This document shows positions 406 to 41,370 of a DNA stretch of 64,000 bases, piece after piece; position 1 is the stretch's first letter; each line of letters starts with the position of its first letter. A program made the translations under genes and the position numbers. This DNA comes from Diphasiastrum complanatum (lineage: Eukaryota; Streptophyta; Lycopodiopsida; Lycopodiales; Lycopodiaceae), in contig CM055093.1 in NCBI GenBank assembly GCA_029204225.1, forward strand, positions 19,270,041-19,334,040, written 5' to 3'. The notes below the pieces were generated by a model. The model was not told the origin of the DNA. It was given only the letters and a program-made list of their open reading frames with translations, and ran no database searches.

Positions 406-410
406 TCAAG

Positions 411-1317: not shown

Positions 1318-1386
1318 TGTCCTACTGTGAGTATATTGGCTGATATCTTGACTAAACCTCTATCAAGAGAAAAGCTTAAGGGAGGG
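1318..1386 (+). pseudogene. 3' end of a copia pol gene with polypurine tract
   Basis: One frame reads VLADILTKPLSREK, the usual C-terminal end of copia RNase H, where ADI(F/L)TKPL is a hallmark. It runs into a purine-rich tract ending AAGGGAGGG at 1386, which normally primes plus-strand synthesis. The rest of this copy cannot be followed upstream: 1107-1317 is degenerate and the solo LTR interrupts at 1101. Confidence 0.7.
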
Positions 1387-1708
1387 TGTTGGAATTAAGC
1401 ATCACTCCAACTCACCAAAATTTGAGTCATCAGTCCTCGAGTCATCAGAACTCGAATCATTTGAGTGCGACTCACTCGAATCCCGAGTACCAGTACACTA
1501 TGTAAATATGAACTCTCTCTCTCTACAATGACATTGCAGCCTAAATCTATGAAGTCCAACGTCTGTGTAATCAATCAACAGGAGTAGAAGTAGGATCGAC
1601 ATCAAACTTTTAGAGTTCAAGGTCTTCGAGTTCTACATGTTTTTTGGCCTCCTTCGAGTTCGAGGTCCACGTCATCCACACTGCCCCGTCCGACGCAGAC
1701 CACGTTAC
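1387..1708 (+). repeat. 3' LTR of the degenerate copia copy
   Basis: It starts TGTTGGAATTAAGC directly after the polypurine tract at 1378-1386, the position and dinucleotide expected of a 3' LTR. It is rich in CTCGAGT/ACTCGAA motifs. The 3' boundary is a guess (a TTACA near 1708); no second LTR copy was found in the window to fix it. Confidence 0.5.
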
Positions 1709-1970
1709 AATTCACTTTAGTACTTTTAGTAATTGCGTTGTTTCATGCTCGTTGCACACATAGTCATTGTAGCTATTCCATGTATATATACATAACGGCC
1801 ACTCACGAAGAATGACATGCAAAAATGATATGTAGCAGAGAAGAGTGAATTAGAGTTTCTACGCGAACTCCATTGTGTCTTAACTTTCTGATTTCTTAGA
1901 ATCAAAGATATCCGAGAGAGTGAAAGCTATTCAAGAAATAGAGATAGTTATTCAATATGTAGCTAGCTAA
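1709..1970. other. Unassigned DNA up to the left rearrangement breakpoint
   Basis: There is no gene. At 1970/1971 the sequence switches abruptly into the middle of the copia A gag-pol frame, with no LTR or start codon. This is the left breakpoint of the proposed inversion. In the ancestral arrangement 1970 would have adjoined the complement of 19888. Confidence 0.5.
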
Positions 1971-4918
1971 GTAAAACTGCAAATGATGGTCAATGTGACA
2001 TCAAAGGCATAGGCACTATTCCTATTTCCCTTTCAACAAATAGGAAAGCAAATCTTGAAAATGTCTTGTACATTCCTTCAATCACTAAGAATTTGCTTAG
2101 TGTAAGTCAAATGATTGACAAAGGACTTGATGTGGAGTTCATTGGAGATGCATGTTTGATAAGTAAATGTGGATCCTTGATTGCTCAAGGTAGGAGGCAT
2201 GGTAAACTTTTCAAGCTTGATGCATGTGTGATCTCTAATCATGAAGGATGTATGGCTAGGGAGCAATTGACAAACCAAGAAGTTTGGCACAAGAGGTTGG
2301 GCCATCCCAACTTCAAATCTTTGGAGGTAATGGCAAAGAAAGAGCTTGTTCTTGGTCTCCCTAAAAGTCTTGTTGCAAACAATAGTGTTTGTGAACATTG
2401 TGCCTTGTCCAAATCTCATAGACTTGCTTATTCTAGATCTACTTCTAGATCTAAAGAAGTTTTTCAACTTGTGCATTCTGATATTCATTCTTCTAGTACA
2501 ACTAGCAATGGTGGGGCAAAGATGTATGCAACTTTCATTGATGACTTTAGTAGGTATACTTGGATCTATCTTCTTAAAAGTAAGGATGAAGTGTTTGCTG
2601 CATTTGTCAAGTTCAAGAATGAAATGGAAAACCAATTCAATACAAAGATCAAATGCTTAAGATCTGATAATGGAGGGGAATACACCTCAAATAGGTTCAA
2701 AGACTTTTGTATAGCACATGGGATTAAGAGGGAGATGTCTAGTCCTAGGACTCCACAACAGAATGGAGTGGCCGAGAGGAAGAATAGAACCCTTTGTGAA
2801 TGTGCCAAGGCAATGAGACTACATGCTAATCTTGCTAAGTCTTTTTGGGGGGAAACTTTAGCATGTGCTAACTATCTATGTAATAGATGGACAAGTGCTT
2901 CCTTGGATGGTAAAACTCCTCATGAGGTTCTTTATGGTAGAAGGCCGAGTGTCAAGCATTGTAGGATCTTTGGATGTACATGTTTTGTCAATATCACACT
3001 TGATGATAGAACTAAAGAAGATCCTTCATCAAAGAAGGGTGTGTTTGTTGGCTATAGTGAAGTAAGCAAGGCTTACAAAGTGTACATTCCTTCTACAAAG
3101 AAAGTTGTCATAAGTAGGGATGTCATCTTTCATGAAGAGAATGTTTCCAATGTTGTTGATGTTGATGTTGATGTGCCTACTAATCATCATGATGTGCAAG
3201 ATGTCTTGGATGAAGATGGAGATGCCACTCCAAAGCAAACTTCAAGGAAGACTCAAAGGCAAAGGGCTAAGCCATCAAGGCTAACCTATGATGAAAAAGG
3301 AAAGCAAGTGGTGGACAACTCTAACTTTGCTTTTCTTACCTCTTTTGATGAACCAACTTGTGTAGGTGAAGCAATTCAAAAGAAGGAATGGATCCAAGCC
3401 ATGGATCATGAGCATCAAGCACTCATCAAAAGCAACACATGGAGGTTGGTAAAGCTTCCAAAGGACAAGAAGGCAATTGGTTGTAAGTGGATCTTCAAGA
3501 TCAAGACAAATCAAGATGGATCAATCAACAAGTACAAGGCAAGGTTGGTGGCAAAGGGGTATGCTCAAGAATATGGTATTGACTATGATGAGACCTTTGC
3601 ACCCGTGGCAAAGATGGTAACTATTCGAATCCTAATCTCTCTTGCAACTCTTTATGATTGGGATATGTGGCAAATGGATGTTACTAATGCCTTCTTGAAT
3701 GGTGATCTTGAAGAAGATATTTACATGGAGCAACCCGAGGGCTATGTTTCACATGATGAGCCTAATCATGTGTGCTATCTCCAAAAGAGTTTGTATGGGC
3801 TAAAGCAAGCACCAAGGAGTTGGTATGCTAAGCTCAATTCCTTCTTACTTTCTCAAAACTTTGTTATGAGTGAGTATGATCATTCTCTCTACTTTAGATT
3901 GAATGAAAATGATATCACTTTACTTTTGATCTATGTTGATGACATTATCTTAAGTGGTGGTAACAATCTAGATATAGATGAAATCAAGATGGCACTCAAA
4001 AGAGAGTTTGAAATTCAAGATCTTGGTAAACTTCATTATATCTTAGGAATAGAGATTATTAGAACTTCTAAATCTACATTCATATGTCAAGAAAAGTATG
4101 TTAACTCTATTCTAAAAAGGTTTCATATGGAAGATTGTAAAGTTGTTTCTACTCCTATGGAATCAAATGTAAAGCTAACTACAAGAAGTAATGAAAGATC
4201 CTTCAAGGACATTACTCTCTATAGAAAGCTAATAGGATCTCTTATATGGTTAACCATCACAAGACCTGATCTAAGCTTTGTGGTTGGTAAACTAAGTCAA
4301 TTTATGCAAGATCCTAGTGAGGCTCATTGGAAGCTAGGAAAGAGAGTACTTAGATACATCTCGGGATCTAGAGATTTTGGCATCTTGTATGGAGGTACTA
4401 CACCTAACCTTTGTGGATTTTCAGATTCAGATTTTGCAGGTGATCAAATGGATAGGAAGTCAACAAGTGCCTTTGCAATCTATCTTGGAGATGGAGTGGT
4501 CTCATGGCTATCAAAGAAGCAACCAACTATCTCTCTATCTTCCACCGAAGCCAAGTACAAGGCATTAACAACATGCACCAAGGAGATTCTTTGGATCAAG
4601 AGGATGTTATTGGATCTTCACTTGCTGGAACCAGAGAAGACTCCAATCATACTTTGTGATAACCTTTCAGCCCAAAGCTTGGCAAGCAATCCTGTTTTTC
4701 ATGCAAGGAGCAAGCACATTGAGATTGCTCACCATTTTGTGAGAGATCAAGTCATTGCCAAAGAGGTGGAACTTCAACATGTCTCTTCAAAGGAGTGTGT
4801 GGCTGATATCTTCACCAAACCATTGGGAAAGGACCTATATTTAATGCATAGATCTAATCTTGGAATGTGCTCAAAGACTATGTTGAAACTAGCATCCAAT
4901 GTTGAAGAGGGAGTGTGA
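1971..4918 (+). CDS. Copia element A, 3' half of gag-pol (integrase, reverse transcriptase, RNase H)
   Basis: An uninterrupted frame enters at 1971 and ends at a TGA (4916-4918) overlapping the LTR start. Counting residues from the TTG codon at 2066, it carries the GAG-pre-integrase motif (VWHKRLGHPNF, about 72-82). The integrase zinc-binding Cys pair follows (CEHC). The integrase catalytic triad is D139, D201 and E237, with exactly 35 residues between the last two. The linker contains PSRLTYDEKGK. Reverse transcriptase has YVDD at 623-626, and RNase H ends in VADIFTKPLGK. There are no stops or frameshifts, so this half is well preserved. The usual start, gag and protease are absent here; they lie on the opposite strand at 19889-20897. 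Confidence 0.93.
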
Positions 4919-5568
4919 AAATTGTCAACATTTCCTAGCTAGTTTGAGGCCTAAATTGGCTAAAATTGTAAATAGTTTTGGTTCTGGAGTTTTGCACGTG
5001 TGAACCAGGCCACAATGTTTTTATTTACTGTATTTTTTCAGTATGATGAAGTGTCAAACTTCATACCCTTCAAAATGAGACCATTTTGATGTATTTTGGT
5101 CATATAAGCCATTTTTAGCTATTTTTCCTATATAGGGAATATCTAGGGTCAAGTACCTTCTAGAGAGAGGAGAGAGAGTCATCTTCCTCATCCATAAATA
5201 GTAGGGAAGTCGTGGAGAACAGGTTGGAGAAACCTTTTGTATGCTTCATTGAGATCAATAGATCATTGTCATTGTTTCTTCCTCCATTGAGAGCATTGTT
5301 GTGTGTATTGTCTTCAAGCTATTGTGTATGATCTTAGGTGCTTTCCAAAAGTGGTAGGCTGATGTATTATGGACTGTATAATGCTATTTTGGGCCGCACT
5401 TGATGTTTATGGAAGTTTCCATTTGTGATAAATGCTTTTTGATCAAGTTCTTTGCATTCTAGGTAGCATAGAATGTGTTGCCAATTCCTAGCTTATGTAG
5501 TTTGGAGTGCAAGCATTCAAGCCAATGATCTTGGAGTTTAGATCCACTTAGGATCTGTATTTTTCACA
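4914..5568 (+). repeat. 3' LTR of copia element A
   Basis: A 655-bp LTR runs from TGTGAAAATTG to CTGTATTTTTCACA, directly after a purine tract (GAAGAGGGAG). The pol stop codon lies inside it. It contains the TATA-like CCTATATAGGG near 5130 and is followed by GTTTG (5569-5573). The reverse complement of 22070-22724 has the same length and, read by eye, differs at one base (C at 5186 against T on the minus strand at 22452). Confidence 0.95.
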
Positions 5569-5573
5569 GTTTG

Positions 5574-6058
5574 AAATTTACGAACATATTAACCAATGTG
5601 GTTAAATATTTAACTAGAGACAATGTTGTCGGACAGATTCACACATTCGGGGTAGACACTGTTTTCCAATAGCATTCTCCCATCTTGATCGGCGACTTGT
5701 AGTTGTTAAAATTGAAAAAACAATACATATTGATTTCTTGGCTTGCTACAAATGTTGTACGATGCAAGTATGTAGCTCATAAATGCAAAATGCCAAATTT
5801 GGCCTACATAGAACTCGAGCTACATGGTTACGTAATATCTAGATTGAAGAATACAACTTGCATATAGTTTGTAGACATAGAATTAGCAAAGTCATGCTTG
5901 TAGAAAATCGTGGCAATTCACATGCATTAATTGTAAGTGATCCATAGTGACATGCAAGGCATGCAGAAAGTGTAATGAACACATGCATGATGATTTGTAC
6001 TTTGTTAGTTAGAACTAGCACACTTGTAAAAAGTTGGTAGAATTTCATGCATGGCAAG
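5574..6058. other. Flanking DNA between two copia LTRs
   Basis: No credible gene was found; the minus-strand frame at 5839-6057 has no recognisable features. In the proposed ancestral arrangement this was ordinary DNA downstream of copia A. Confidence 0.4.
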
Positions 6059-6493
6059 TGACAAATGTCACATAGACTCTAGATGTCACTTTAGATGTCA
6101 TTTTTTAATGAATGGATGTGGTTCTACCTTGAGCTACCTTAAACTCCATAAATATGTGTAGCTCTCCTCACAATCAATGATGAAGAACCAAAGTTTTGTA
6201 GCTCTCATGCCATTTTGGATCTAAACTATTTTGCTTGTTATCTCTCTATCTTTCTCTCTCTAGCTCGTGTTGAAGCTAATGCTTATACACTGATATCTTG
6301 TACTTTTGCTAATTATTGATTCATTGCTGCATATTTAGTTGCTTAGCATGCTAGATTGTGGTTAAGCCATTTCTTCTGAACTAGATCTTGCTAATCAATC
6401 TAGAATCAGGTTACTTTGCTAATCACAAAGCTTAATTAGATCCATCATACTTGTGGACATTCCCCACACATGTGAAATATGGAAATTTTGTCA
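6059..6493 (+). repeat. 5' LTR of copia element D
   Basis: The 435-bp LTR begins TGACAAATG and ends ATTTTGTCA, so the ends form the inverted pair TGACAAA/TTTTGTCA. It is followed with no gap by a primer-binding site. The left flank is GCAAG (6054-6058), but the matching duplication cannot be checked because the 3' end of the element is lost at about 8893. Confidence 0.85.
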
Positions 6494-6506
6494 TGGTATC
6501 AGAGCC
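6494..6506 (+). other. Primer-binding site of copia D
   Basis: TGGTATCAGAGCC is complementary to the 3' end of plant initiator tRNA-Met. It directly follows the 5' LTR and fixes element polarity. The untranslated leader runs from 6507 to 7246 and holds nothing else recognisable. Confidence 0.9.
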
Positions 6507-7246
6507 AAATTAAGCTTTGCATGCTAACATCTCTGATTGTACAAGAAATTGAGAGCTAAATCAAGCAAAAAAGCAGTTTTGCACTTTTTCGCACCTTTCT
6601 CTAAATCAGATTGAAACTGAATTTTCAGACCTGAAATGTGGTAGTACGGAATTCTAGAATTTCGCAAGTGTGAAAATCAGAGATTTTCAGTCCCTTTGTT
6701 CTCCTTGCTTATAGATCCAAGGATAACAGTGTTATAGCTTGATGGAGAGCTTACGATCTATACTTTCTATAGAAATTGAAACCAAATCAATATGATGTGT
6801 CTAGCAAGAGTTATAAGCTCTTAAAAAGGATAGGGATAGGTCCAAAATTCAAGTGACAACATTTTGATTTGATTCAATCTTGCTTTGTTCTGAATCCATT
6901 GTTTTGAGCATCCTACACAAGAAACTTAAGATCAAGATTGAGTTTGAAATAATTAACACCTTTTGAGCATTCTGAGAGTCAATTGTGTTTTCTTTTGAAG
7001 CATTTCACACGTACCAAAAGTAGGATTCAAACTAGCCAAACTGTCTCAATCCACTTTGTGTGTCTGATCTAGATAACTTGGCTTGTGGAATATTTGAGAT
7101 TCATCTCAAATACAGTTGCAAGTGTTTTACATAGGAAGGTAGTACATCCTTGAAAATACCTATACTGAAAGAAAGCAGCAACTTTAAGTCTGATTGGAAC
7201 AAGCTCAAACGTATTGCAGTCCAATAACTAAGAAGTCTTCATTAAA

Positions 7247-8893
7247 ATGACATCTCAGGGAGGATATCTTCTAGAAGCCAGTGAAAGACTAAACACTTCT
7301 AATTACTCAATTTGGAAGTTCAAAATGGAGTCTATTTTAATACTCCAGGATGTTATGGATATTGTGCTTGGTGTTGAGGAGGAGCCTCAAGCACAGACTG
7401 AAATTCTTAAGTATATGAAAAGAGCTAGAATGGCTCTACATTTCATGAAGATGAATATATCTAATGAAATTATGAGAGAGATAGGATCTTGCACTACAGC
7501 CAAAGAAGCTTGGGATGCACTAAAGTCCATCTATGAAGCAAAGAATACTTCTAGAATACTCACTCTTAGAAATCAGATTTTCCAAAGTTTCCAAAGAAGT
7601 GAAGAGAGTACATCTAACTATGTTCTGAGAGTTAAAGATTTACATAGAGAGCTTTCCTGTGTTGGTGTTACTATTAACTAAGATGAGCTAGTTCAAGTCA
7701 TACTGAATGGCTTGAGAGATGACTATGATAATCTTGTTCAGTCTTTTGTTATTAAAGAGGAGTTGCCTAATCTAGAAACTCTCCAAGGAATTCTTATTTT
7801 TGAAGAATCTAGACAAAGCTATAAACTCTCCAGGATGAACAAACTCGAGCATGGTAGAAGTGACAAAGCCCTCTTTGTCAAAGACAAGCATAAAGGAAGG
7901 AGTAAGAACCAATTCTCTCAGGCATCCAACAAAGACAAAGCCAAAGATTGAGACAAAGATGGTGAAAGGATGATACATCTCATCCTTCTAACTCAAAGAC
8001 CAAGAAGAAGAAAGTGAAGTGTGTCTTCTGTGGCAAGAAGAGGCACTATGCCTCTAATTGCTTTAAGAAGAAAAACCAACTCAAGCAAGCTAATCTCTCC
8101 AAAGAGATTTAAGAAGATTCTGTTGCAAGTGATGGAGAAGGATCACTCATGGTGTCCAGTTTTTCTTCATCACCTTTCAAGAAAGATGGAGCTTGGTACA
8201 TAGATAGTGGAAATTCTTCACATATGAGCTGTTCAAAGGAGTCATTTGACTCAATCTTACCCTACAAAGGACTCAAGAGATCTATTTATTTTGCTAATGA
8301 TCATGAGTGCCCAATAGAAGGAATTGGCAATATTCCAATGAAACTTGCTTCTTCAAAAGTTCTTGCACTTTTAAATGTTCTTTTCATTCCAAAACTCACA
8401 AAGAACTTAATTAGTGTGGGAAAGTTGCTTGATAATGGTTGTGATGTAAAGTTCAACTCCAATACTTGTTTTATCAAGAAAAATGAAGAGATCCTTGCTG
8501 ATGGATCTAGATGTGGTCGAATTTTTAAGTTGAATTCTCATGAGAATGCAAACCTTTGTGAAGTTGCTTTGTTATCTAAGGAGGAGCTGTGGCATAGAAG
8601 GTTGGTTCATCCTAACTTTAAATCTATGTCTTCTATGGCTAAGAAGGTGAAGGCTATTGGTCTTCCAAAATCTCTTTCTAAAGCTTTCAAGCCTTGTGAG
8701 GCTTGTGCCATTGCAAAGTCACATAGAAAGCCATATCAGAAGTCTTTTATAAAGACTACTCATCCTTTGGATTCACTTAGATGTACATTTTTCCTCTTCT
8801 AAAAGTATTGGTGGTGCAACATGTTTTGTCACCTTTATTGATGACTTTACTAGATATACTTGGATGTATCTACTTTCTTCAAAGGCTATGGTT
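7247..8893 (+). pseudogene. Copia element D, gag-protease-integrase N-terminus, broken
   Basis: It starts at ATG 7247 (MTSQGGYLLEASERLN). A UBN2-type gag of about 235 codons follows, then a CCHC zinc knuckle (CVFCGKKRHYASNC, near 8020-8065), the aspartic protease motif DSGNSSHMS near 8199, and the GAG-pre-integrase motif LWHRRLVHPNF. The integrase Cys pair CEAC and the start of the integrase core (FIDDFTRYTW) come next. In-frame stops lie at 7679-7681, 7949-7951 and 8110-8112, with a frameshift near 8795. At about 8893 homology ends abruptly and unrelated sequence follows; RT, RNase H and the 3' LTR are missing. Gag is similar to that of element A but clearly a different family. Confidence 0.85.
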
Positions 8894-9490
8894 ACCCCCT
8901 GTTGCGACTCGCTCTGCACTACCCATTCCCTCAGCCTTTGTAACTACCCTCATCTCTGATTTCTCACAAGGGCCATCTGTGAAAATTAGATCTACCATTC
9001 CAATCACAATTACCCAAGTCGTCTCACCCCCACAAACTTTAGATATTTCTCTGAATACTCAACCGTTTATGGAGATGATCGATGATTCTTACAGGCATAT
9101 GAATGTTTTGTGATGCCATTGAGCCCTGGACCCTTTGAACTAGAATCCCCTGGATTCGATCATTTCTCGAAAACCTTTGATACTTTTGATTCAATACCGG
9201 CATTTCAGCAAGGCCAACAAGTAGATCAAACAGTTCAAGCACCAAACACCATCATAGTTACTTTTGTGGTTATATCCCCAAAGCAATTTGATGTAGAAGT
9301 TCCAAATGGTTTTGAAGGAGAAGATATATTTTTAAAAAATGATCTTATCAATCAGAAACTCATCCAGCTAAACTGAGAGTTGAAGATAGCCAAACAAGAC
9401 GAAGACAAGTCAGAAGTAGAGATGAAAAAGACAAAGAAACTTGCGGATGTGTGGAGACATATTTTTCAACTCTTTAGAATGTGCCGACTA
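8894..9490 (+). pseudogene. Unidentified degenerate coding-like stretch
   Basis: Two overlapping frames (8781-9113 and 9110-9376) read as one protein after a shift near 9110. They are rich in Pro, Ser, Phe and Asp and continue past a stop at 9374 into a lysine/glutamate-rich, coiled-coil-like stretch. I recognise no domain. It resembles in style the extra ORF at 48222-50030, but I cannot show homology. Confidence 0.3.
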
Positions 9491-9653
9491 ATGCACAAGA
9501 CCAGGTTGATAAAGACACCAACTTAAGAAATTCTCCCAATGTAATATCCATCTTACTAGATAGAATATTCACGATCAATTTTGTTTGTGGGGCTTCAGAT
9601 TTGGTCATCTTGAAAGGCTCTTCGTGATGGTGCAACTGAGTACTAACATATGT

Positions 9654-11119
9654 TCATGTATTACATAAATCCAATGGTGGCACAGGTGAAAAATGAACTT
9701 TGGCTGCAGTTTTAATGGCTTCCAATGCCTCCTCATCTTGCAAGTCTTTAATCCAGTGTCTCATATTGTTGTATTTCTTCTTCTCTGAGTTGAGATTCAG
9801 ATATACCCCTGATGCGGTAGGAATATCAGTAGTTGACATAGATTCAGGAGGTGTTGGATCAACATCAACTCCTTTCTACTTCTGAGCTCGTCTTGTTGGG
9901 GACAGTCTTTGTAACGATGTCCATAACTGCATTCCCGACAGAATGGAGTAAACTTTTCTTTATTCGGATATTCAGCAATTATGTGATTTTTTCCACATCC
10001 AAAGCATCCAAGTGGTGCTCTAGCCCACTGTCTAGACTGTTGTTGTTGCGCAACAGCATAGATAATGTATTGCTCTGAAGGACCAACATCTTGATCAGTA
10101 TTGTAATTCCATTGGTCATTACTAACTGAAGATTCTGGTACGATCATATTTGCAGAAGGACCATGTTGTATTGGGGGGCCTGGCAAAGCTAATCATTCTG
10201 AAAATCCAAGATCTTGGAGCTTACCATCTGGCAATAAGTATCTTTCACATGTCGTTTTAGTGTTGGACACTCATTTATGGTGTGCTTTCCAGCACAAATC
10301 ACACACCAAATATTTTCTTTTCTAGAAAATGTTTTAGTCGTCTTGTTAGCTGCTTTGTCAGGCTTGGCATTCTACTCTTCCAATGATTTCAATTTTGCAT
10401 CGAACTGTGACTACATCTTCTCTAGTTGTATTTGTTGCTTCTTGGCAAGTTTTTTCAAGCTCATCGATCATTAACTCAGCTGTTGCATTGACATTTGTAG
10501 ATGCAATAGTTGTGGATGTTGTAGCGGTTTGCCGCACTATATATGATAGCATTCCCACATTTGGTTCATCATCTGAATCTTCGTCCTCTTCATGTATTGC
10601 ATCATCCATAGCATGTTGTAATGATCTATAATCAGCTCGACGTTTAAGTTCACCTCTTATCCTTTTAGGTAGACCTGCTAAAATCACATAATCATAGCAT
10701 CATTATTTATTAGTTCAAGTTCATACTCTGGTCTGAGATGCTTGACTCATTCTATATAATCTTCCACCCTTTCCCTCTTTCCCATTTGAATTTTACTTAA
10801 AAGTAGGAAAGGATCTTCCAAGAACTTTCTGGGTTTAAATCTTGTGATTAGGCCAGCTTTAGCAACTTCCCAATCCATACGTTCAGTCTCATCTTGGTTG
10901 TAAAACCATTCCTTGTGCTGCGGGCCTGTTAAGGACATAGGAAATAGTTTAAATTTATCTTGTGAAAAAAATTCTCCATAAACTTCACATGATTCATCTG
11001 ACTAGATCAGATAAAACATCATACTTTGGTAACTCTAGATGATGTGACCTTATAACAATAACTTGTGGAACAACCATTGCAGGTTCAAGTGGCTCAAGAG
11101 CATTGTCTATATCCGACAT
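9654..11119 (-). pseudogene. Gypsy-type gag polyprotein remnant
   Basis: Reading leftward from an ATG at 11119 (MSDIDNALEPLEP), pieces in shifting frames give a retrotransposon gag core. Examples are WFYNQDETERMDWEVAKAG and ITRFKPRKFLEDPF at 10747-10938, with RVEDYI and then LPKRIRGEL near 10650. An acidic linker is followed by two zinc-knuckle-like motifs at 9900-10050. The first, CFGCGKNHIIAEY, has the last Cys replaced by Tyr; the second is FCRECSYGHRYKDC. Stops and shifts are frequent. It lies directly downstream of an LTR and primer site on the same strand, so this is the 5' part of one gypsy element (H). Confidence 0.7.
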
Positions 11120-11443
11120 CTTTTCAAATTACTTCAAACAACAATGAGTTTGGCTCTATATTTTTCATTTGACTACTATCTTTAATCAGGTTTGTAAAAT
11201 TGCAATCACTTGACAATTATCAAATTTTTTGTTTTGGAAAAAATATCTTGATCAAGCGATCAACAGTTCTAGATATAATAATTTCTCATAATCAATATCA
11301 AACTGTAACTAAATCCCGTGAAGGATTCATATAGGTCCTAAGAAGCAGTATAGGTTGAGAACGAAGATTTCTTGGTTTGTAGAATTGAAAATAGCTTCAA
11401 ACTTGATGGAGATGGAGCATAAGCCACCAGCCACCAATTTATA

Positions 11444-11665
11444 GCTCTAATAGCTTGTTGGGAAGGTAAACAGAAATGTTAATCTTGTTGTAAAATGCAT
11501 TATTCTATATAGAGACAGTTTCTGACTGGGCAGCGAAGATTGTTGAGTATCTGATGCTAGGGCAACCGAATGACTCTTTGATAGAAGTACAGAAGAGGCA
11601 ATTTGTTCATAAGGCTCAACCTTATCAATTGAATTCAGGTCAATTGTATCATCGTGGATCAAACA
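11444..11665 (-). repeat. 5' LTR and primer-binding site of gypsy element H
   Basis: On the minus strand the LTR runs 11665-11456 (210 bp), from TGTTTGATCC to CTTCCCAACA, with TGTT/AACA ends. It contains a TATA box (CTCTATATAGAA). It is followed at 11455-11444 by AGCTATTAGAGC, which matches the tRNA-iMet site TGGTATCAGAGC at 9 of 12 positions. The gag start lies about 325 bp further on. Boundaries rest on termini and context, since no partner LTR is in the window. Confidence 0.6.
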
Positions 11666-11700
11666 ATATTCTACATATATGTGTTTTACCGCATGAAATA

Positions 11701-12498
11701 TCAGCTAGTACCCCCAGAGCCCGATGAATTGGTTGGTATTTGAGCTCCTTGTCCCAAGGGTTGGCTTTGAAATGTGGAGCCTTGAGTTGCAAGAGGGGGC
11801 TGTTGAAATCCTACGCCATCTCCACCATCAGGTCCATCAAAGTGAAATTGGGCGTGCTCTGCATGAACCGATGGTGTCGATTGGGCAGCAGCCTTTAAGC
11901 GTTCTTCGAGGGTGGCTATGTGCTGGTTTAGGGCCTCAACGAATGCAATGTATGATTGTTGTAATTTTGTGTGTTGCTCCATCATGGCTTGTAGCTTTTG
12001 GGCCAACGTTTGATAGGCCACCACTGGAATGGCAGTTCCCTTAGGGATAGTTGGTGGTGCGAAGTCGTTGAAGTCCACCATTTCCAGCTGTTCCTTCATA
12101 GCAGAACGTGCTGCTTGTGAATCTGCTATAGCCTCATCCTTCTCGGCTTTGAGGGTATCGACGGTTTGCTGCATGTTGGATACCTTCAATTGGAGCTGGT
12201 TTTGGAAATGGATTAGCATCTACTGCTGTTATTGATTATAATTCGTGAGGTTTTGGATCTGCAGCTGCTGTTGTTTGGTTTCCTCCTCCAGCCTTGCTTT
12301 TTCTTTTTGAAGGCCCGCCATAGCACCATCGTCGAATTGCCGCATAGTGTGTTGTCCCCCTAGGGTGCCGAATATATTGTATTGGAGCTCATTCACCAAC
12401 CATCCCGCTTTTTGGGCTGTAAGGGGTAGCTGCTCCCAAGGACCAATGTCAGGTAGGTTTTGTGTGTAGTAGGGTGAAAGAAAAAACACATATTTCAA
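11701..12498 (-). pseudogene. Unknown glutamine-rich coiled-coil protein, interrupted
   Basis: Two minus frames (12498-12229 and 12219-11701) are in one reading frame, separated by TAA and TAG codons where CAA and CAG would continue a Gln run (YNQ-stop-QQ-stop-MLIHF). The N-terminal part has GWLVNELQYN. The middle is heptad-like and rich in Gln, Glu, Lys and Leu, typical of coiled coils. The C-terminus is low-complexity (Gly, Gln, Ser, Pro). No domain is recognised. It ends just upstream of the gypsy H LTR, so that element probably inserted beside or into it. It may be a gag-like or accessory retroelement protein. Confidence 0.45.
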
Positions 12499-12679
12499 AA
12501 CAATGAGTGATTAACTCATTCTTGCTCTTCCTAAATCCGAGAGCACTCATTTGATTCATAACAATTTTTAGATAACTAAGACATAAAAACTTGCTCTCAA
12601 ATGAGTCATTACACATCTTATCTTCAGCTTCCTTTTTGATGAAGCCCTCAAGTCGTCTCATGTAGTTCTCAAAGCATAC

Positions 12680-12900
12680 CTAGGTTTGCCTCATGTAGAT
12701 CTCATAGCAAAATGGTCCATCAAGCATTGAAGTAAGAAAAGTGAATGGTTGGGAATCTTCCCCTTGATTACCTTTGCCAAGATAAGTGAGCCTTGAAGGC
12801 TCGGCCCCTGTCTTTTTGGATCTTCTTGGAGCACTTGATCTTTGAGGTGGATCCTCAAGATCTCCATCACTTTGTTGCTCCTCCTCAATACTTGCAAGGG
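12680..12900 (-). pseudogene. Copia integrase-RT linker fragment
   Basis: One minus frame reads ...RRSKKTGAEPSRLTY followed by LGKGNQGEDS and FTFLTSMLDGP. This matches the linker of copia A (RAKPSRLTYDEKGK ... FAFLTSFDEP at 3270-3350). The fragment is about 220 bp, lacks both flanking domains, and abuts a plus-strand copia fragment at about 12905. Confidence 0.6.
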
Positions 12901-12904
12901 TCTA

Positions 12905-14466
12905 CTAAACACCTTTTGGGCAGAAGCTTGTAGCACAACTACACACATCCTGAATCGGTGTCCTACAAAATCCATGGAAGGTAAGAATAAGCATCATATT
13001 CCTGATGAGAAACGAAGGAAATTGGATGCAAAAGCTATCAAGTGTATTCTCCTTGGATATGATGAGAAGGCCAAGGCATACAGGATGTATGACACAAATG
13101 CACAAAAGCTTGTAATTTCTAGAGATGCTATGTTTGATGAGATGGGCCAAGGTGAACAATCTGAAGTAATCACTGAACCTTTTGATGAGGGAGCGAAAGT
13201 ATAGGTCAAGAAGGAAATGGATTTTGATATAGAAAATCCATTGGACAAAGGCAAGCCTGATGTTGAAATTCCCAAGAGAGTATCTAAATGGTACTTATCA
13301 GTCACTAATGGTGCAAAGAAGGGCGATACTCCTGAATCTAGTGAGCAGGGAGAGCTTAGAAGATCAAGTAGAAATCGAAAACCTCCTGCAAGATTAGAGA
13401 TGAATCTTTGCTCAAGGCTCAAGAACCAAAAACTTTTGATAAAGCAAAGGAGCACGAGGAGTGGCGTGAAGCTATGGAAACAGAAATGGGAGTTATATCA
13501 AAAAATAGGACTTGGACCTTGGTTAAGCTACCTGATGGTAAGATGCCTATCACTTGCAAATGGATATACAAGATCAAATATGGAGCTGATGGGCAACTCA
13601 ACAAATACAAAGCACGGTTGGTTGTGAGAGGATTTGAGCAGCAGGAAGGTATTGATTTTGAGAAAACCTTTGCACCCGTAGCTAAGATGGTAACTATACG
13701 TTCTGTCATTGCTATTTCTGCCTTCTATGGTTGGAAGATCCAGCAAATGGATGTTAAATCTGCTTTTCTTAATGGAGTGCTAGATGAAGAGGTGTACTTA
13801 GTACAACCTCAAGGATTTATTGAACCAGGGAGAGAGCACCTTGTTTGTAAGCTCAACAAAGCTATTTATGGATTGAAGCAAGCACCACGGGCATGGTACT
13901 CTTGCATTGATAAACACTTTAAGCGAAGGGGAATGGTAAAGAGTGATGCTGATCCTAATCTCTACATTCTAAGGCAAGATTCAGATATAGTGTTCATTGT
14001 GCTGTACATGGACGATTTGATTATTACAAGAAGTAATGAGAGCTTAATTGATGAAATCAAATCAGATCTTTCCAATGCTTTTGACATGAGCGATCCAGGA
14101 TTGATGCACTATTGTCTTGGCATTGAAGTATGGCAAAATCAAAAATGTTTTCTTTCTTACACAAAGCAAATATGCACGAGATTTGCTTTATAAGTTCAAT
14201 ATGAAGGATTGTAAGCCTTTGGGTACACCTATGGATGTCAACACGAAGCTTACTGCATATGATGAATCTGAGAAAGTGGATGCTTATTTGTATAGACAGC
14301 TGGTGGGTAGTTCTGCACAAGAAGCAGTATGGTTACGAAGATTGCTTGTGGATTTAGGTCAACCACAGGTGGATGCAACTACTATATCTTGCGACAATCA
14401 AAGCTGCATTCACCTTGCCAAAAATCCAGTTTTACATGCTCGAACCAAGCACATCGAAATACATTA
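12905..14466 (+). pseudogene. Copia element B pol fragment (integrase end, RT, RNase H)
   Basis: The frame begins in the integrase C-terminus (TFWAEACSTTTHILNRCPTK) and skips the usual VFGC segment, about 90 bp being deleted near 12980. It continues KCILLGYDEKAKAYRMYD. A frameshift at about 13410 leads to a long reverse transcriptase frame (13408-14193) with ARLVVRGFEQ, VAKMVTIR, AIYGLKQAPRAWY and YMDDLIIT. A further shift occurs at about 14190. A deletion joins YRQLVGS directly to EAVWLRRLLVDL, removing the RT-RNase H connection. The end (KHIEI) is followed by a 3' LTR. The copy is therefore inactive. Confidence 0.85.
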
Positions 14467-14469
14467 GAG

Positions 14470-14730
14470 TGTTAGAAATCAATGATAAACTTCATTGTTA
14501 CACTGCTTAGTTATTGTTTACGATGTACTTTATTACTAGCTGTAACTAGCCGTTGGCTAGTCTAGTAGTCTACTCCTAGGTTCTCCCTCTCTATTAGGGT
14601 CCAGGGTTTATATGTACATTTTACATTCAGTATGTGGCAGCGTGATAGATTGATAGTGTGTGTTCTTCTTCCGGCTTCTTTGGTGATTGCTTATGTTGAA
14701 TGATTGATGTTTCATTTCTGATTGTTGACA
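14470..14730 (+). repeat. 3' LTR of copia element B
   Basis: The 261-bp LTR begins TGTTAGAAATCAATG and ends CTGATTGTTGACA. It is clearly homologous, with several substitutions, to the 264-bp minus-strand LTR at 53334-53597, which confirms both boundaries. The sequence right of 14730 is antisense copia gag, not a target-site duplication. Confidence 0.85.
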
Positions 14731-14734
14731 TCCT

Positions 14735-15010
14735 ACACTCTTCAGCGACTAATACACTGTGAAGTTTTTCTATAGTTGGCAAAGTGTCTTGGATGGCAAA
14801 ACTTTGGACCAAATTTGCAAAGTCATCTCCTAGACCATTAAGAACAATTTGTACAAGCTCTCCATCATGAATCTTCTCTCCAATGGAAGCCAACTCCCTA
14901 TTTAGAGACTTGATTCTGAGTACATAATCTTGTGCACTCTCCTCACTTCTCCTCATGCTTTGCAAAATCTAATTTCTAAGCATGAGTAATCTTGAAGTGT
15001 TACTAGATTC
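14735..15010 (-). pseudogene. Copia gag fragment
   Basis: Reading leftward from about 15010 the translation is LRN-stop-ILQSMRRSEESAQDYVLRI and continues through LVQIVLNGLGDDFANLVQSF to LVAEECR. This aligns with the middle of the gag of copia A (REGESAHAFILRVKSLS ... LVQSFAIQRVLP) and of copia D. The frame runs on artificially into LTR B. Protein and zinc knuckle are otherwise missing. Confidence 0.75.
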
Positions 15011-15202
15011 ATAGTGTGAACTTGAAGTGAAGGTCTCCTAAATTCTAAAGTCCTGACTTAAACATTGTGTCTTAAAAAGAAACAAATCAACAAAACACTG
15101 ATGAATAAATCCGAAAAGAACTCAAAGCTTAATGAAGTAATTCATCAATCAATCACAAAAGCATTCATTCATGAGACTTGCTTAGGGGTCAAGATGGGAA
15201 CA

Positions 15203-15224
15203 CCCCCCCCCCCCCCCCTCCCCC
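15203..15224. repeat. Poly-C tract
   Basis: Sixteen consecutive C, then T and five more C. It interrupts an otherwise featureless 350 bp between the gag fragment and the tandem repeat. Length in such tracts is often uncertain in assemblies. Confidence 0.8.
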
Positions 15225-15357
15225 AAAAGGATTTTTCTCTTAAATTATGCAAGGTCAAATGGCCCAAGTCCAAATACATATACAATGGTTTGGGAAGAAA
15301 TCTTCTATAAAGGAAAGTGGTTTCTTATGACATGCAAAAGCTTAATGATAAAAAATG

Positions 15358-15743
15358 GAGCATGCATAGTCATTAGGCAATGGAAGGTGTGACATGCAAG
15401 CTTGAAATCAGACATGCAAGCTTGAAATTAGACATGCATGGTCATTAGGCTATGGATGGTATGACATGCAAACTTCAAATATGACATGCAAGCTTTAGAT
15501 CTGACATGCAAGCTTCAAATCAAACATGCAAGGTCATTAGGCTATGGATGGTATGACATGCAAGCTTCAAATCAGACATGCAGGCTTCAAATCAGACATG
15601 CAAGTTCCAAATTAGACATGCATGGCCATCAGGCTATGGATGGTGTGTCATGCGTGGCCATCAAGCTATGGATGGTGTGACATGCATGGCCATTAGGCTA
15701 TGGATGGTGTGACATGCATGGCCATCAGGCTATGGATGGTGTG
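15358..15743. repeat. Two-module tandem repeat
   Basis: About 385 bp built from two interleaved modules. One is near 20 bp (GACATGCAAGCTTCAAATCA and variants). The other is near 32 bp (GACATGCATGGCCATTAGG plus CTATGGATGGTGT). The first dominates the left side and the second the right, where four copies run in succession. Open frames through it are artefacts of the repeat period. Confidence 0.85.
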
Positions 15744-16860
15744 TAAGTTTTAGAGAGAGAGAGAGATGAAAGAGGTAAGAGAAAGTGAGTGTGTGTGTGC
15801 ATGGTTCCAAAATGGTTCCAACAAGCTTGGTAGATCCTCCTTATGCCATAGTTCCAAGCTTCCTTCCAATCACCTACACACATAGAAATAAGAATAAGAG
15901 ACAAACCAAAAATGAAAAGGAGATGAATAATGAGGGAGAAGGATGAGTTACTCCTTTTATAGGGAATGTGTAGCCTTGAGGGAGTGGCTGAGGTGTCCAA
16001 AATATGTGTGAGAGGTGTATGGGAGACTCTAGGAGAAGTAGAGTGAGAGGGTGAGGTGTATAGGTGTGAGAGGGTGTTTAACAACTTCTTAAAGCAAAAG
16101 GGGAGGAGTAGGAGGCCGCATTTTCCTAGGTGTCTTATGGCTTACAAGCATTGTGACAAAGTAGGTAAGTTACATATTGATAAGGATGGAAGGTAGGTGG
16201 CTTAACATTTAATGTTAGCCACTTTCAAGTTGTATTTTTTTTGGTTTACAACATTGGGATTTACCTCAAGTGTTTTTCATAACTGGGAAAGGCTTTGTAT
16301 ATGTCCATCTTACCTTGTATAATTTTCATCAATTCCTAGGCCCTTTTTTCTAGGGGTTGTCCATCTCCAATCATAGTGGAGTGTGGCACAAAGGGTGATC
16401 AGTCCTTTGGTTTCTTCTTCAAATCTTTATAGACTCGAGTGAGCCTCTTTATAGACTCGATTTGAGCCTTCTTAATAGACTTTGTAAAAAGCCTTCTTTA
16501 GGTACCATCTTTAAGCTTTAAGAAGCTTCTTTAGTTCATTCTTTAGGCACTCTTCTTAGTACCTGCACATGGCCTTAAGAAAAGGTTAGGAGTCATACCA
16601 TAAAATGGTTCATCATTAGATTCTATTTCTAGAACCTGCACATCAAACTGTTAGCATTGATCTACAATTTCATTTCTTGTCTTCAGGTAATGATACCTAC
16701 ACACATATTTCATCAGTTAGAGTAATAAGCTCTAATATTCAAGATATGTTTCATACAAAAAGAATGGAAGACTGGATAGCCTTTATTTCTTGGTCAATTT
16801 GGTCTATACAACTCTGACATATTAAACGTTGTCCTCAATGGATATTTCTCAAATAAACAT
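15744..16860 (-). repeat. Probable 3' LTR region of a gypsy element
   Basis: This lies downstream, in the minus sense, of the gypsy integrase/chromodomain remnant. It has a TATA-like CTATAAAAGG at 15953-15962 followed by TC-rich sequence, the usual make-up of an LTR promoter and leader. No second LTR copy was found, so exact ends are unknown. The minus frame at 15725-16084 is low-complexity and not called. Confidence 0.35.
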
Positions 16861-17640
16861 TTAAAATACTCGATATTCTTGGAAGAATTCTTCTTCCATC
16901 CATCTTGCATCCATAGTAGGATAGTTTTTAAATTTGAGGAGGTATAATGTAGAAGTTATTCTCTTTCTTCCAGTTCTTGTCTTGTGCATCAAGATCTGCT
17001 CAAGTTGAAGGATTTCTTCTTTGGTCATCTTTGTTCTACTAGGAGATGCATGAACTTTGTCCCTTTGAAGGATTTCTTTTTTGGTCATCTTTTGTGCTAC
17101 TATGAGATGCATGAACTTTGTCCCATGGTCGACAACCATCATTTTAGGTGTCTTGATAATCCTGCACAAATTCATCTAAGGCAAATATCTTTTTTTTAGT
17201 CCTCAATACGAGAGGCACAATAGGTTTTCCATATATTACTTCAAAAGGCGCTTTACTAGTAGAAGAATGAACTGTGTTATTGTAAGCAAATTCTAGTATA
17301 GGAAGATAGTATTCCCATTGAGTCTTTTGATCACTTACATAACTTCTCAACAAGTCTATGATGGTTCAATTAGTAATTTCACTTTGATCATCAGTTTGGG
17401 GGTGGAAGGAGGAAGAGAATTTAAGGGTTGTCCCAAAGTTATCAAAAAGGGCTCTCCAAAAGTTGCTAGTAAATCTTGTATCCCAATCAGATACTATACT
17501 CTTGGGTAGTCCATGCAGCCTAAAGATGTGACAGATAAACAAATGAGCAGCTTCAGGTCCCTTAAGCTTTTTTTTACAGGAAATAAAATGAGCTTGTTTG
17601 CTAAATCTATCCAAAGTTAAAATATCATATAGTAAAAACT
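16861..17640 (-). pseudogene. Gypsy (chromovirus-like) integrase and chromodomain remnant
   Basis: Frame pieces in order give: MDRFSKQAHFISCKK, then the integrase core with FRLHGLPKSIVSDWDTRF and HPQTDDQSE (catalytic Asp and Glu visible). The integrase C-terminal part follows (WEYYLPILEFAYNNTVHSST, APFEVIYGK). The tail YLLKFKNYPTMDARWMEEEF resembles a chromodomain. Frameshifts occur near 17360 and 17150, and a short direct duplication (KMTKKEILQ/KMTKEEILQ) lies in between. The upstream RT and protease are missing. Confidence 0.8.
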
Positions 17641-19226
17641 GCCAGCAAATTCATTGTGGTTCCTTCTATCAATTTTAAATTATCTATTATTGGGAAATAA
17701 TTTAGTCTTAGTGAAACCATTGTGACTAACACTGACTGATAAATTCAGTATAGTCAATTCGCTAATCTAATCTCATTCCATAGATAGTGAAAAATTTCTA
17801 AAATTTTGATTTTTTGGAAAAACTGAATTTTTAGTTCATTTTACGTAATTCAAAAAAATTCTCACAAAAATACTATTAGTACAAAAGGCAATCAAAATTG
17901 AAAAATCAAAATATTGTTCGATTTCTAATGTCACTAAACCAATGTCCAACTGGCATGCAAAGCATACTACATCAGTTACTAAAGGTCATTACAAATTTTT
18001 TTAGGTAAACGTTAGTTTTACGAAATTTGTCAACCAATATCACTGATTTGTGACCCAACCATTAGAGCACATGCGTATAACCACTCAAATCAACTGTAAA
18101 TCCCTCACGTATGTCAGAAGCTCTCTCAGAATCAACATGCAACCAATCCATGCAATCACATTACTACAAACTAAGGCAATGACTGGCATGCAATCAGAAC
18201 AATTACGGATTTTGCAAATTTTGCTCACAAAACTACAAAAATTTTAGATGGTCATAACTTTGGATACAAACACCAAATTGGGTGCCGTAAAGCTCAAAAC
18301 AGAGGGAGACCAAGTGACCAAGATGATTGCTACATCAGCCTACCACCTAGGCTTCACACGTGCGAGAACAGAACATCTAAAATTCTATAGTACAGGGTGC
18401 ATTTCTACAAGGCATAATCTTGCAAACTTGCCACCTAGACTTGCCACATCAATGCTAATCATGTTGTAAAAAAAAATTTGGAATGATCTCCTTATGGATT
18501 TAGGGAGATCCATCCCCCAAAAATTACCAAAAATGGTCATTTTTGCACTTTTTTATCTTCCTACAAGCTCAATTGCTGGATTTCTTGGCTCTAACTTCAA
18601 GAACAGCTTCAAAAGACATTGGTTCAACTCTTTACAAGCTCTACATGGTGTTTTACAACAACCTACTATCCAACTTTATGAAAAAAACAAACAAAAATCA
18701 TGATTTATAGCTCTTTTTTTTATCTTTCTTCACTATAAAGTGGAAATTCATGACATGCAACTCTTTCTCAACCACATGCAAACCAATTTACAGAATTATG
18801 GCCATCTAATTAATCTGATCTTTCTGGATTTTAGTTTTTACTATCAATTTTGAGTCAAAAAGCATGAAAATCCAAACAATTTTGACCTGAACATAGCCGA
18901 GAATTATAAATTATAGAAAGAACCAGCATGCATCATTCATGATTCTGAAAATGAAAGTACACTTGCTGGAAAATTCAGATCTACACAATATTTGAACTAC
19001 ACAAGAAAAAACTCCAAAAAAGACATGACAAATTGGCTTTCTAGGACAATTCTCCATAAGACCCCAAAAAATTTCGAGAGTAATAAATCTTAGCAACATG
19101 CAAATGAAAACTGGGATAGAACACCCACTTGCCATCTTGCTATCCACTTGGAAGAGAATTCCAATTGATCCAAACAGAAATTTTGACGAAAGGTAGCACT
19201 TCTCCAAGTTCTCCAATCTTCGTATG
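17641..19226. other. No recognisable gene
   Basis: AT-rich DNA with scattered short frames. The minus frame at 18911-19336 runs across an LTR end and primer site and looks like retroelement leader rather than a protein gene. Confidence 0.4.
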
Positions 19227-19560
19227 CCTTGCTCTGCTACCACTATAAGGGAAAGCTCCTCAAGATTCTGCTTACAAGACAAACACAATGGAAAACACAC
19301 TATGGAGAAACCACCCAACCAAGTAGAAGAAACCAATCAACCTCTAGAAGCTTCACCCCTAAGCCAAGGAATAGGAAGCATGAAAGTAGAGTGAGAGCCT
19401 GACAATGAATCAACCACAAATGTGTGTAGTAGGGCGAGTTTGGCCTCCTTATATAGAGCCTAGGACCACCTGTGCACATGGTCATGCAAGGTCCTAAATC
19501 CCTTATACATAGATTCATCTAGAATAGAGTCTCTATGCATAGATCTGTTGGGGGCTCTCG
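19227..19560 (-). repeat. LTR promoter/end and primer-binding site of an unassigned retroelement
   Basis: On the minus strand a TATA box (CTATATAAGG, about 19448-19457) is followed some 205 bp later by TGGTAGCAGAGCAAGG (19242-19227). That is a near match to the initiator-tRNA-Met site with one change inside the usual 12-mer. The LTR start is not visible. No gag follows; the internal region is replaced by unassigned DNA. Confidence 0.45.
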
Positions 19561-19888
19561 AAGAGATTAGGTGCAAAATAGTAAATAGAGCTCTAGCATA
19601 GAGAACTTGAATAGGAACTTTACTAAACTACAACAGCAACATTGACTTAGATCGAATGGAAGATTTTTTGGTAGGGGTCGAAGACAACCATGAAAGGAGC
19701 GAAACAATTAGGTGTTTGAGACAACTATGTTTTCTTCGAGATGAGTGAGCATCAATTGAGATAGAAAATGATCAAGAAGCATTCATAGTGGAATACACAT
19801 AAGAAAATAAAGAATCTGAATTAAGCTTATTGTGAATACAATGATCTAATCACGATCTTGTGTCCAAGAATGGTTCACAGTAGTGATG
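19561..19888. other. Unassigned DNA ending at the right rearrangement breakpoint
   Basis: There is no gene. At 19888/19889 the sequence enters the copia A gag-protease frame from its broken side. This is the partner of the breakpoint at 1970/1971. Confidence 0.5.
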
Positions 19889-20897
19889 CACTATGTTTAC
19901 CTTCTCCCTCATAAGACAATAAGGATGTAAAGTATTCCTTATGTCTTGTCATGTGAGATGAGGCTCCACTACCAATCCACCAAGGATCATTATCATCTAT
20001 GTTGGCTAACAAACTTGAAGTCATAACAAGTGATTCACATGTGTTATGTTCTTCCTCATCTATTGTAAGATTTCCTTGCCTCTCTCCTTGCTCTCTTTTC
20101 TTCTTATAACATTCATTTGCAAAATGACCTTTTATCCCACAATAAAAGCACTTGAACTTTGACTTATTGTTCTTAGTAGAAGAGGAAGAGGAAGAGTGAT
20201 CATCATGATCAAAGTTACCACCTTTGGACCAATTCCCTTTGCCTTTACCTTTGCCCTTGAATTTGCCTTTTGTGAAGAAAGCCTCTTCACCTCCACCTTG
20301 CAAGGATGCACCATCAAGCTTTGATTGCAACCTATGTTCTTCAGCCAATAAGATTTCTTGCAAGTCAACCACACTTGGCAAGACTCTTTGAATGGCAAAA
20401 CTTTGCACAAGGTTAGCATGTTCATTTAGCAAACCATTCAACATAACTTGGACTATTTCACCATCTTTTATGTTCTCATCAATGCATGCTAAATCATCAC
20501 TTAGGGACTTAACTCTCAAGATAAATGCATGAGCACTTTCACCCTCTCTTTGCCTACTAGAAAATGTTTGTCTCCTTAGGGTCAATACCCTAGATGTGGA
20601 CTTTGATTCAAAGAGCTTCTTTAAGGCATTCCATGCCTCACTTGCACTTTGACACTTTCCAACTTCCTTGAGAAGTTCATTTGTAACATTCATTTTAATG
20701 ATATGAAGAGCCCTTTTGGCCTTCTTATCAAACCTTTGTTGCTCTTGAAGTGTGAGAGGTCTCTCTTCAATTTCTGCAACTATGTCCATGAGTTCATTCA
20801 ACTCAAGTAAGGACTCCATCCTCACTTTCCAAGTAGAGTAGTTTGATGAACTCAACCTTTCACTAGACTCTAGCATGATCCCACCATTGGAAGCCAT
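19889..20897 (-). CDS. Copia element A, 5' half of gag-pol (gag, zinc knuckle, protease start)
   Basis: ATG at 20897 (MASNGGIMLESSERLSSSN) opens an uninterrupted UBN2-type gag. A basic Gly/Lys-rich stretch follows, then a CCHC knuckle (CFYCGIKGHFANEC) and the protease motif WWIGSGASSHMTRHKEYF. The catalytic Asp of the D-S-G triad is Gly (codon GGT at 19973-19971). Homology stops at about 19889 in mid-protease; the last few codons before the TGA at 19875 are foreign. The missing remainder begins at 1971 on the plus strand. The two open segments add up to 3,957 nt, a multiple of three, although the exact junction is uncertain by a few bases. Confidence 0.92.
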
Positions 20898-22053
20898 GAT
20901 TCTAATGTTTCTTCAACTTTTAGGTTCTGTCCTAAAGCACTTAGCACTCACTTTTCTCTCAACAAATGATAGATAAAGAGATCTATGAAGATTTAGGACC
21001 CTAAAACACTTCTATCTTGAACCTAGATGGTTTCCAAGCATAGAAAGGAAGATTGAAACACATGCAACACTTTGCACACACTAAGAATGGATTACAAAAT
21101 CAAACCAACCTGAACACACTCTTGCTTAAGCTCTCAAACTTTCCAGCAAGTGACCAAATCAAGTTATGGTGTGAAGAGTTACTTGCATTCTTAGAAAATA
21201 CCCAAAACTAGGATGCCAAGATTACCTAGTAATGAACAAACTTGATCAACATATGATCAACACACTAAGATATTGATTCAACCTGTAAAACCACATGTAA
21301 ACCACACTTCTAAAAGTTTATAAACTCCAGCAAGTGATAAATACAAGATTTAGAGGTGAATGAATGAGCACACTTAGTGAATCACAAGACTAGCTTCACT
21401 ATCTTGTCAAATCTTGGTGTTTAGATGTAGATCTAAGATCACTTCACATGAGAATGTTCCTCAACCTGTTAAGAACCTGAAAACACACTTGCATAATGGT
21501 TAACACCTTCCAGCAAATGCTCCAATCAAATTACATAAGGAGAGTTACTTACATGCTCAACAAAGTACACCAAAATTTATGCCAAAATTGATGACAATCT
21601 TTACAATATGCTCTTCACAATGGAGCTTACAATATGTTCACCCAAAAAAGGGGATCTTTCATCCAAATGGGAGCTTTGCTCAGCCTTTAGGAGAATTACA
21701 ACTCACTCAAAAGAGCATTTTTCATCCACTTAAGGAGAAGTTTCATCCACTTAAGGAGAGTGTTCATCCAAGAATGGAGATTGTCAACAATAGGATTGAA
21801 AAGAACATTGTTAGTATTGAATATGCACAAGCCTCACAATCACAAATGATTAGGTGTTATAATCTGATCCAAAATAGTTTCTTTTCAGCCTCTGATCTTC
21901 AATAGACCTGAAATATGCTTTTGATCCACAAGTTCAACTCACAAAACAAAGGTTAGTAAGATTTGATCAACAAAGCAATGCAAAATCATGCTAGAACTTG
22001 ATCAAACATCCAAATATCACCAAAAATGGAATACTTACTGTAAATAGAAGCCA
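20898..22053 (-). other. Untranslated leader of copia A
   Basis: About 1.15 kb between primer site and gag ATG. It includes short degenerate repeats of a TTCATCCACTTAAGGAGA-like unit near 21650-21780. The plus-strand frame at 21579-21905 is a by-product of this repetition. Confidence 0.6.
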
Positions 22054-22069
22054 ACCAGCTCTGATACCA
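22054..22069 (-). other. Primer-binding site of copia A
   Basis: The minus strand reads TGGTATCAGAGCTGG immediately after the 5' LTR, complementary to the 3' end of initiator tRNA-Met. It shows that 22070-22724 is the 5' LTR and that the element is read leftward here. Confidence 0.93.
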
Positions 22070-22724
22070 TGTGAAAAATACAGATCCTAAGTGGATCTAA
22101 ACTCCAAGATCATTGGCTTGAATGCTTGCACTCCAAACTACATAAGCTAGGAATTGGCAACACATTCTATGCTACCTAGAATGCAAAGAACTTGATCAAA
22201 AAGCATTTATCACAAATGGAAACTTCCATAAACATCAAGTGCGGCCCAAAATAGCATTATACAGTCCATAATACATCAGCCTACCACTTTTGGAAAGCAC
22301 CTAAGATCATACACAATAGCTTGAAGACAATACACACAACAATGCTCTCAATGGAGGAAGAAACAATGACAATGATCTATTGATCTCAATGAAGCATACA
22401 AAAGGTTTCTCCAACCTGTTCTCCACGACTTCCCTACTATTTATGGATGAGAAAGATGACTCTCTCTCCTCTCTCTAGAAGGTACTTGACCCTAGATATT
22501 CCCTATATAGGAAAAATAGCTAAAAATGGCTTATATGACCAAAATACATCAAAATGGTCTCATTTTGAAGGGTATGAAGTTTGACACTTCATCATACTGA
22601 AAAAATACAGTAAATAAAAACATTGTGGCCTGGTTCACACGTGCAAAACTCCAGAACCAAAACTATTTACAATTTTAGCCAATTTAGGCCTCAAACTAGC
22701 TAGGAAATGTTGACAATTTTCACA
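22070..22724 (-). repeat. 5' LTR of copia element A
   Basis: A 655-bp LTR on the minus strand, TGTGAAAATTG ... CTGTATTTTTCACA, the same length as the LTR at 4914-5568 and nearly identical by eye. It is preceded on the minus strand by GTTTG (plus-strand CAAAC at 22725-22729), the same 5-mer that follows the other LTR at 5569-5573. Near-identity implies a recent insertion. Confidence 0.95.
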
Positions 22725-22729
22725 CAAAC

Positions 22730-23377
22730 TACCCAGGTTTACCAACAGTAAGTTAGCACATGCTTTGGAATCGGTGACCCCATGTTGTTTCCCAATATCC
22801 TTGCGTCACAGTTAGACAGTAAGCATAGTTACCACATGTTGTTATTGTGGTCTAGTTGCCCGTTCACATTTAATAAGTATCATATAACTTTGAATCAATC
22901 TGGTATTTTATAGATTTGAGAATTTGGCGCTAAACTTTGGCAACAATCACTATGGCTAGGAGACCAAGATCCAAAATTAAATCGATGATTGGAAACCAAC
23001 AAGATATATAAAAAACTCATTGGTTCTACTACATCCGTCCTCAAAAGGCATGTTTAGACCAAGTAAGAAGGCAAAAATGACATTCAAATCTTATTGGAAA
23101 GCAAAGATCCTTGATTTTAGGACTTTTTCAGGAGGGCAATCAATCTCAGAAGTCTTGGTTCAGCATGTCTATATGCATTCAGAACTGTATCTACAAGATC
23201 TCAATATTCATGATTTATTGGGATCTATTTTTTAACATTCATGCTTTTGAAACTTGTAGAAATCATATCAGTTATCATATATGTATTGCATTCTTGCAGA
23301 TTTATATCCATCCAGCATAAGTGAATGGGAGCCAGCACAATCCCTAGCAGGTATATTGGATGTGATTCATTCATATA
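22730..23377. other. No recognisable gene
   Basis: Flanking DNA of copia A, with only short frames (for example 23020-23235) that carry no recognisable domain. Confidence 0.4.

Positions 23378-41367: not shown

Positions 41368-41370
<3 letters not shown>

Follow-up and report, generated by a model that had tools for sequence, protein, structure and literature searches.

A young Ty1/copia retrotransposon of Diphasiastrum complanatum lies in two oppositely oriented pieces, and very probably this reflects a single copia insertion followed by two breaks about 17.9 kb apart whose ends were rejoined in reverse by end joining, the un-inverted form of the locus being carried on another contig, C3291. 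The window, meaning the whole stretch of 64,000 nucleotides that was analysed, corresponds to C2:19270041-19334040 of a genome comprising 5176 contigs and 1.74 Gb.

Two complementary pieces of a young copia element

The young element and the segment between its pieces comprise the following features:

1976 to 19896, no strand: inverted segment, 17.9 kb (low end 1976 or 1977, base 1976 being ambiguous)
1976 to 5568, plus strand: 3' part of the young copia element, with the rest of the protease region, integrase, reverse transcriptase (RT), RNase H and 3' LTR
4914 to 5568, plus strand: 3' LTR, 655 bp
5569 to 5573, plus strand: target-site duplication GTTTG, adjoining the 3' LTR; single copy in C3291
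19897 to 22724, minus strand: 5' part of the young copia element, with 5' LTR, primer-binding site, gag and the start of the protease region
22058 to 22069, minus strand: primer-binding site TGGTATCAGAGC, adjoining the 5' LTR
22070 to 22724, minus strand: 5' LTR, 655 bp
22725 to 22729, minus strand: target-site duplication GTTTG, adjoining the 5' LTR

A sequence-only reading of this DNA had described the pieces as complementary halves, one with gag and the start of the protease, the other with integrase and RT. The Pfam domains agree: the minus-strand 5' half has gag, a zinc knuckle and the first part of the Pol_BBD/protease region, and the plus-strand 3' half has gag_pre-integrs, rve, SH3 and RVT_2. 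The open reading frame of the 3' part spans 2066-4918, its frame being open back to 1973 and closed by the stop at 4918. RNase H is our own assignment from sequence features, the Pfam listing holding no RNase H match, and the primer-binding site TGGTATCAGAGC is presumably a match to initiator tRNA-Met. Across both halves the Pfam order places integrase before RT, with a copia-type gag and RVT_2, and the element has paired LTRs, TG...CA ends and a short target-site duplication. It is thus like Ty1/copia in its gag, protease, integrase and RT order, LTRs, primer-binding site and 5-bp duplication, and unlike a typical member in that this copy is in two pieces and has a changed protease catalytic residue.

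The two pieces also stop at the same point of the protein, as the sequence-only reading had proposed. Both matched 100 of the 120 listed protein relatives, and among these matches the pieces end no more than 32 residues apart in 95; in the other 5 the gap is 162-172, with one local alignment ending early. Among the listed relatives, identity is as high as 44% where 99-100% of the query is covered, and 49% where 58-59% is. With the stretch next to the break as query, a protein search listed no more than 3 matches, all distant. The lengths agree with a single element: the parts (2828 and 3593 bp) and 10 bp sum to 6431 bp, and four LTR pairs elsewhere in the genome span 6431, 6430, 6423 and 6431 bp by coordinate subtraction. 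The protease catalytic residue is substituted in this copy, and therefore its own protease was probably defective. That residue is kept in all four uncut genomic copies and in 103 of the 104 relatives whose motif was found by a simple pattern, which found no motif in 16 of 120.

Breakpoints and lost bases

Breakpoints were set by aligning four uncut genomic copies at the break. Uncut is not the same as intact, since one of the four (L011) has a small gap beside the break and stops in frame. In all four copies the two pieces are neighbours, with the 10-11 bp between them missing from the window. By this comparison 19897 is the last base of the 5' part and 1976 or 1977 the first of the 3' part, and bases 1971-1975 and 19889-19896 belong to the flank, outside the element. 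The sequence-only reading had placed the breaks at 1971 and 19889, which is 5-8 bp off, and had expected that reversal would restore the element exactly, which fails because 10-11 bp of it are gone. With 7-8 bp of flank also lost, the total loss is 18 bp. Blunt, lossless junctions at 1970/1971 and 19888/19889 were ruled out by the same comparison, and a hairpin noticed by eye at 19888/19889 has no role given the corrected breakpoints. An apparent excess of 2-3 residues in the protein at the break, compared with many relatives, came from counting flank bases as part of the element. One base is shared at junction 1 and none at junction 2, which together with the 18-bp loss fits end joining.

An empty, un-inverted copy of the locus

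Contig C3291 (44,066 bp) is collinear with C2:19252047-19298753 throughout except for indels and a tandem-repeat stretch. Its blocks correspond to the window as follows:

C3291 18093-20069: window 1-1976, same orientation
C3291 20077-27078: window 19896-12894, reversed
C3291 31133-37473: window 12898-6559, reversed
C3291 37471-38015: window 6113-5568, reversed
C3291 38010-40000: window 22725-24718, same orientation

The inverted segment is thus represented in C3291 by three reversed blocks, 99.3-99.6% identical, and the segment lies in opposite orientation on this contig while the flanks are collinear. In C3291, window base 1976 is followed by 7 bp and then by the complement of 19896; at the other end, the outer flanks of the element meet with one GTTTG and the copia element is absent. 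C3291 holds the ancestral arrangement, empty and un-inverted, and both orientations therefore occur in one assembly (C2 inverted, C3291 un-inverted). Since both ancestral joins are present in C3291, one insertion followed by one inversion accounts for the arrangement in the window, and the central proposal of the sequence-only reading, a young copia insertion split by an inversion of about 17.9 kb, is borne out.

Two length differences lie within the segment. C3291 27079-31132 (L043/L044) is a stretch of 4,054 bp absent from the window, with the 5-mer CTTGC at both ends and copia-like frames on both strands; the difference is either an insertion in C3291 or a deletion in the window. Conversely, about 446 bp at window 6113-6559, near the 5' end of an older copia within the segment, have no C3291 counterpart.

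Older repeats at the break and at the insertion site

The flank breakpoint and the young insertion each fall in an older repeat:

1334 to 1386, plus strand: tail of an older copia, which we take from its motifs to be the end of an RNase H frame and a polypurine tract (low end approximate)
1387 to 1976, plus strand: first ~590 bp of the older 3' LTR, starting TGTTGG and cut by the flank breakpoint
19546 to 19896, minus strand: remainder of the older LTR, ~350 bp (low end approximate)
22730 to 23329, plus strand: older dispersed repeat, target of the young insertion (40 matches listed)

The older LTR is uncut in C3291, where it runs from 19478 to about 20427 (TGTTGG...CCAACA). A flank break just 2 bp short of the older LTR's end, with CTAACA completed by the join, was considered and rejected, as the uncut C3291 LTR runs about 350 bp further. 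Other copies of this LTR are 73-83% identical among the matches listed, and 26 of the 28 copies examined (of 54 listed matches) read through the un-inverted join; the remaining two, L017 and L018, read differently after it. The empty site is likewise read through in 8 of 8 target-repeat copies examined, of 40 listed matches. This support from the older LTR and the target repeat is independent of C3291 being an allele.

LTR identity, age and polymorphism

The 5' and 3' LTRs have a single mismatch, at LTR position 273, and GTTTG adjoins both (5569-5573 and the complement of 22725-22729), exactly as had been read by eye. The form of the 5' LTR that differs by one base was absent among 8 LTR loci examined. 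All 40 scored LTR places (of 960 candidates), this locus among them, match the 3' LTR at 100% identity and are spread over several large contigs, and this young copia family appears to have undergone a very recent burst. With so many identical places, LTR near-identity is no proof of a single insertion, and the weight that the sequence-only reading had put on it is not warranted taken alone. The shared 5-mer and the coincident break are better evidence of a single insertion: by simple counts, the chance of a matching 5-mer is ~1/1024 and that of the break coinciding within 10 bp ~0.004.

If substitutions accrue at 7e-9 per site per year, the single difference between the 655-bp LTRs dates the insertion to about 109 thousand years ago (95% interval 3 to 608 thousand), and the inversion came after it. 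Between C2 and C3291, 107 of 21,796 aligned sites are different (0.49%), with 74 of 13,843 in the inverted part and 33 of 7,953 in the flanks, which is not a significant difference (p = 0.27). Because the site is empty in C3291, the copies on C2 and C3291 had probably already diverged when the element inserted. In view of its similarity to C2, C3291 most likely represents the alternative haplotype at this locus, and for that reason the inversion is probably polymorphic.

Proposed course of events and alternatives

A young Ty1/copia element of a recently proliferating family inserted into the older dispersed repeat, duplicating GTTTG, of which C3291 has a single copy. We propose that two double-strand breaks about 17.9 kb apart on the same chromosome later fell in the protease-coding region of the young element and in the LTR of the older copia; the stretch between them now stands reversed, the orientation seen in C2. 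This order, insertion then inversion, is deduced from the element being cut; a filled, un-inverted haplotype was not seen. With 0-1 bp shared and 7-11 bp lost per break, the junctions point to ordinary end joining, not repeat recombination. End joining is described as a plant repair route in the parts consulted of PMC7156093 and PMC10893937. Beyond cutting this copy, the inversion probably has no effect, because the features identified in the segment are retroelement or unannotated DNA (six-frame scan of 14201-19888). There is a small chance that the two events were linked, in that the arrival of the young copia, or another attempt at integration by the same family, broke the element; if so, a retrotransposition burst would give rise to inversions that break within the family's most recent copies.

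Several other readings of the locus were weighed. A misjoin in C2, the true arrangement being either that of C3291 or one with the element present and uncut, might be expected in so repetitive a family (960 first-look candidates), and of 40 listed matches to the derived junction 2, the one on C2 is the only one to carry it whole. Such an error is nevertheless unlikely: it would take two reciprocal chimeric joins between different sequences with at most 1 bp in common, the 7-11 bp lost at each break would be unexpected for a misjoin, C3291 lacks the element and is hence no source for its halves, and no N was found in the window, in the 20 kb of C2 before it or in C3291 1-40000. That the halves came from two separate insertions whose GTTTG match is chance is hardly credible, even though the family is young and abundant and unrelated insertions share identical LTRs; the outer flanks are adjacent with one GTTTG in C3291, all 8 target-repeat copies agree, and the simple counts given above make the coincidences rare.

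Recombination between inverted repeats would fit the presence of copia-type elements at both breaks and the enrichment of retroelements at rice inversion breakpoints reported in the consulted part of PMC10030860. We consider it very improbable: one break falls in coding sequence and the other in an LTR, the two belong to different families, and no more than 1 bp is shared at either join. No long inverted homology was found at the breaks, where window self-blastn listed no inverted pair, and the young LTRs lie away from them. A further reading, fairly unlikely and compatible with insertion followed by end-joined inversion, is that C3291 is a recent segmental duplicate, in which case the inverted form may be fixed. 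C3291 is indeed a separate short contig, yet it is collinear with C2 throughout, its 107 differences in 21,796 sites are as for an unpurged haplotig, and the target-repeat flank has just two near-identical matches, the next-ranked full-length match being 86% (40 scored of 1208 candidates).

Relation to known inversions

An inversion breakpoint inside an LTR retrotransposon is a known kind of event, with a close rice precedent in the consulted part of PMC3060143. There, an inversion in the Orp region of Oryza glaberrima, absent from related rices by PCR, left the LTR retrotransposon R16 in two fragments, some of its sequence having been lost. The Diphasiastrum locus is alike in having one breakpoint inside an LTR retrotransposon, two fragments and loss at the break. 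It differs in the element loss (10-11 bp vs ~4.3 kb deduced for R16), in the segment, which here holds mostly old retroelement fragments over 17.9 kb whereas that of Orp carries genes, and in the presence of an empty, un-inverted form in the same assembly. The rice pan-genome inversion index, in its consulted part (PMC10030860), reports 59 of 100 sampled inversions without clear repeats of the sought kinds at the breaks; it likewise has LTR retrotransposons at breakpoints, and is a population catalogue, whereas the present case is one inversion for which the order of events and the junctions are resolved. Large inversions are described in maize (PMC2773423), the consulted part of which mentions no split element.

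The locus is an unusually complete record of a small inversion, in that target repeat, empty site, insertion, and cut and rejoined ends were all sequence-checked in one genome. A split young element gives an upper age bound for an inversion and a simple genotyping test, and with many identical LTRs in the family, a genome-wide scan for split copies could gauge the rate at which young insertions are rearranged.

Other features of the window

The Rfam scan of the window returned nothing, and neither did the tRNA scan, run with a program for the bacterial code; in a viral-contig scan one stretch gave a pattern match, for which no relative was found. Six-frame Pfam searches of 1-1970 gave sub-threshold matches only. 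At 14.2-19.9 kb, within the inverted segment, the plus-strand scan was empty, and the minus strand had a copia gag above threshold and weak integrase and chromodomain matches. An imperfect-repeat array containing gacatgcaagctt also lies inside the segment, at 15353-15743. The six-frame search of 22.7-27.2 kb gave a core-histone-like fragment at 25643-25924 (minus strand; PF00125, E 5e-19), which we take from its motif to be H3-like and which, having an internal stop, is probably a pseudogene. Cytochrome P450-like frames occupy two ORFs at 39577-41396 on the minus strand, the first with listed protein matches of 43-59% identity.
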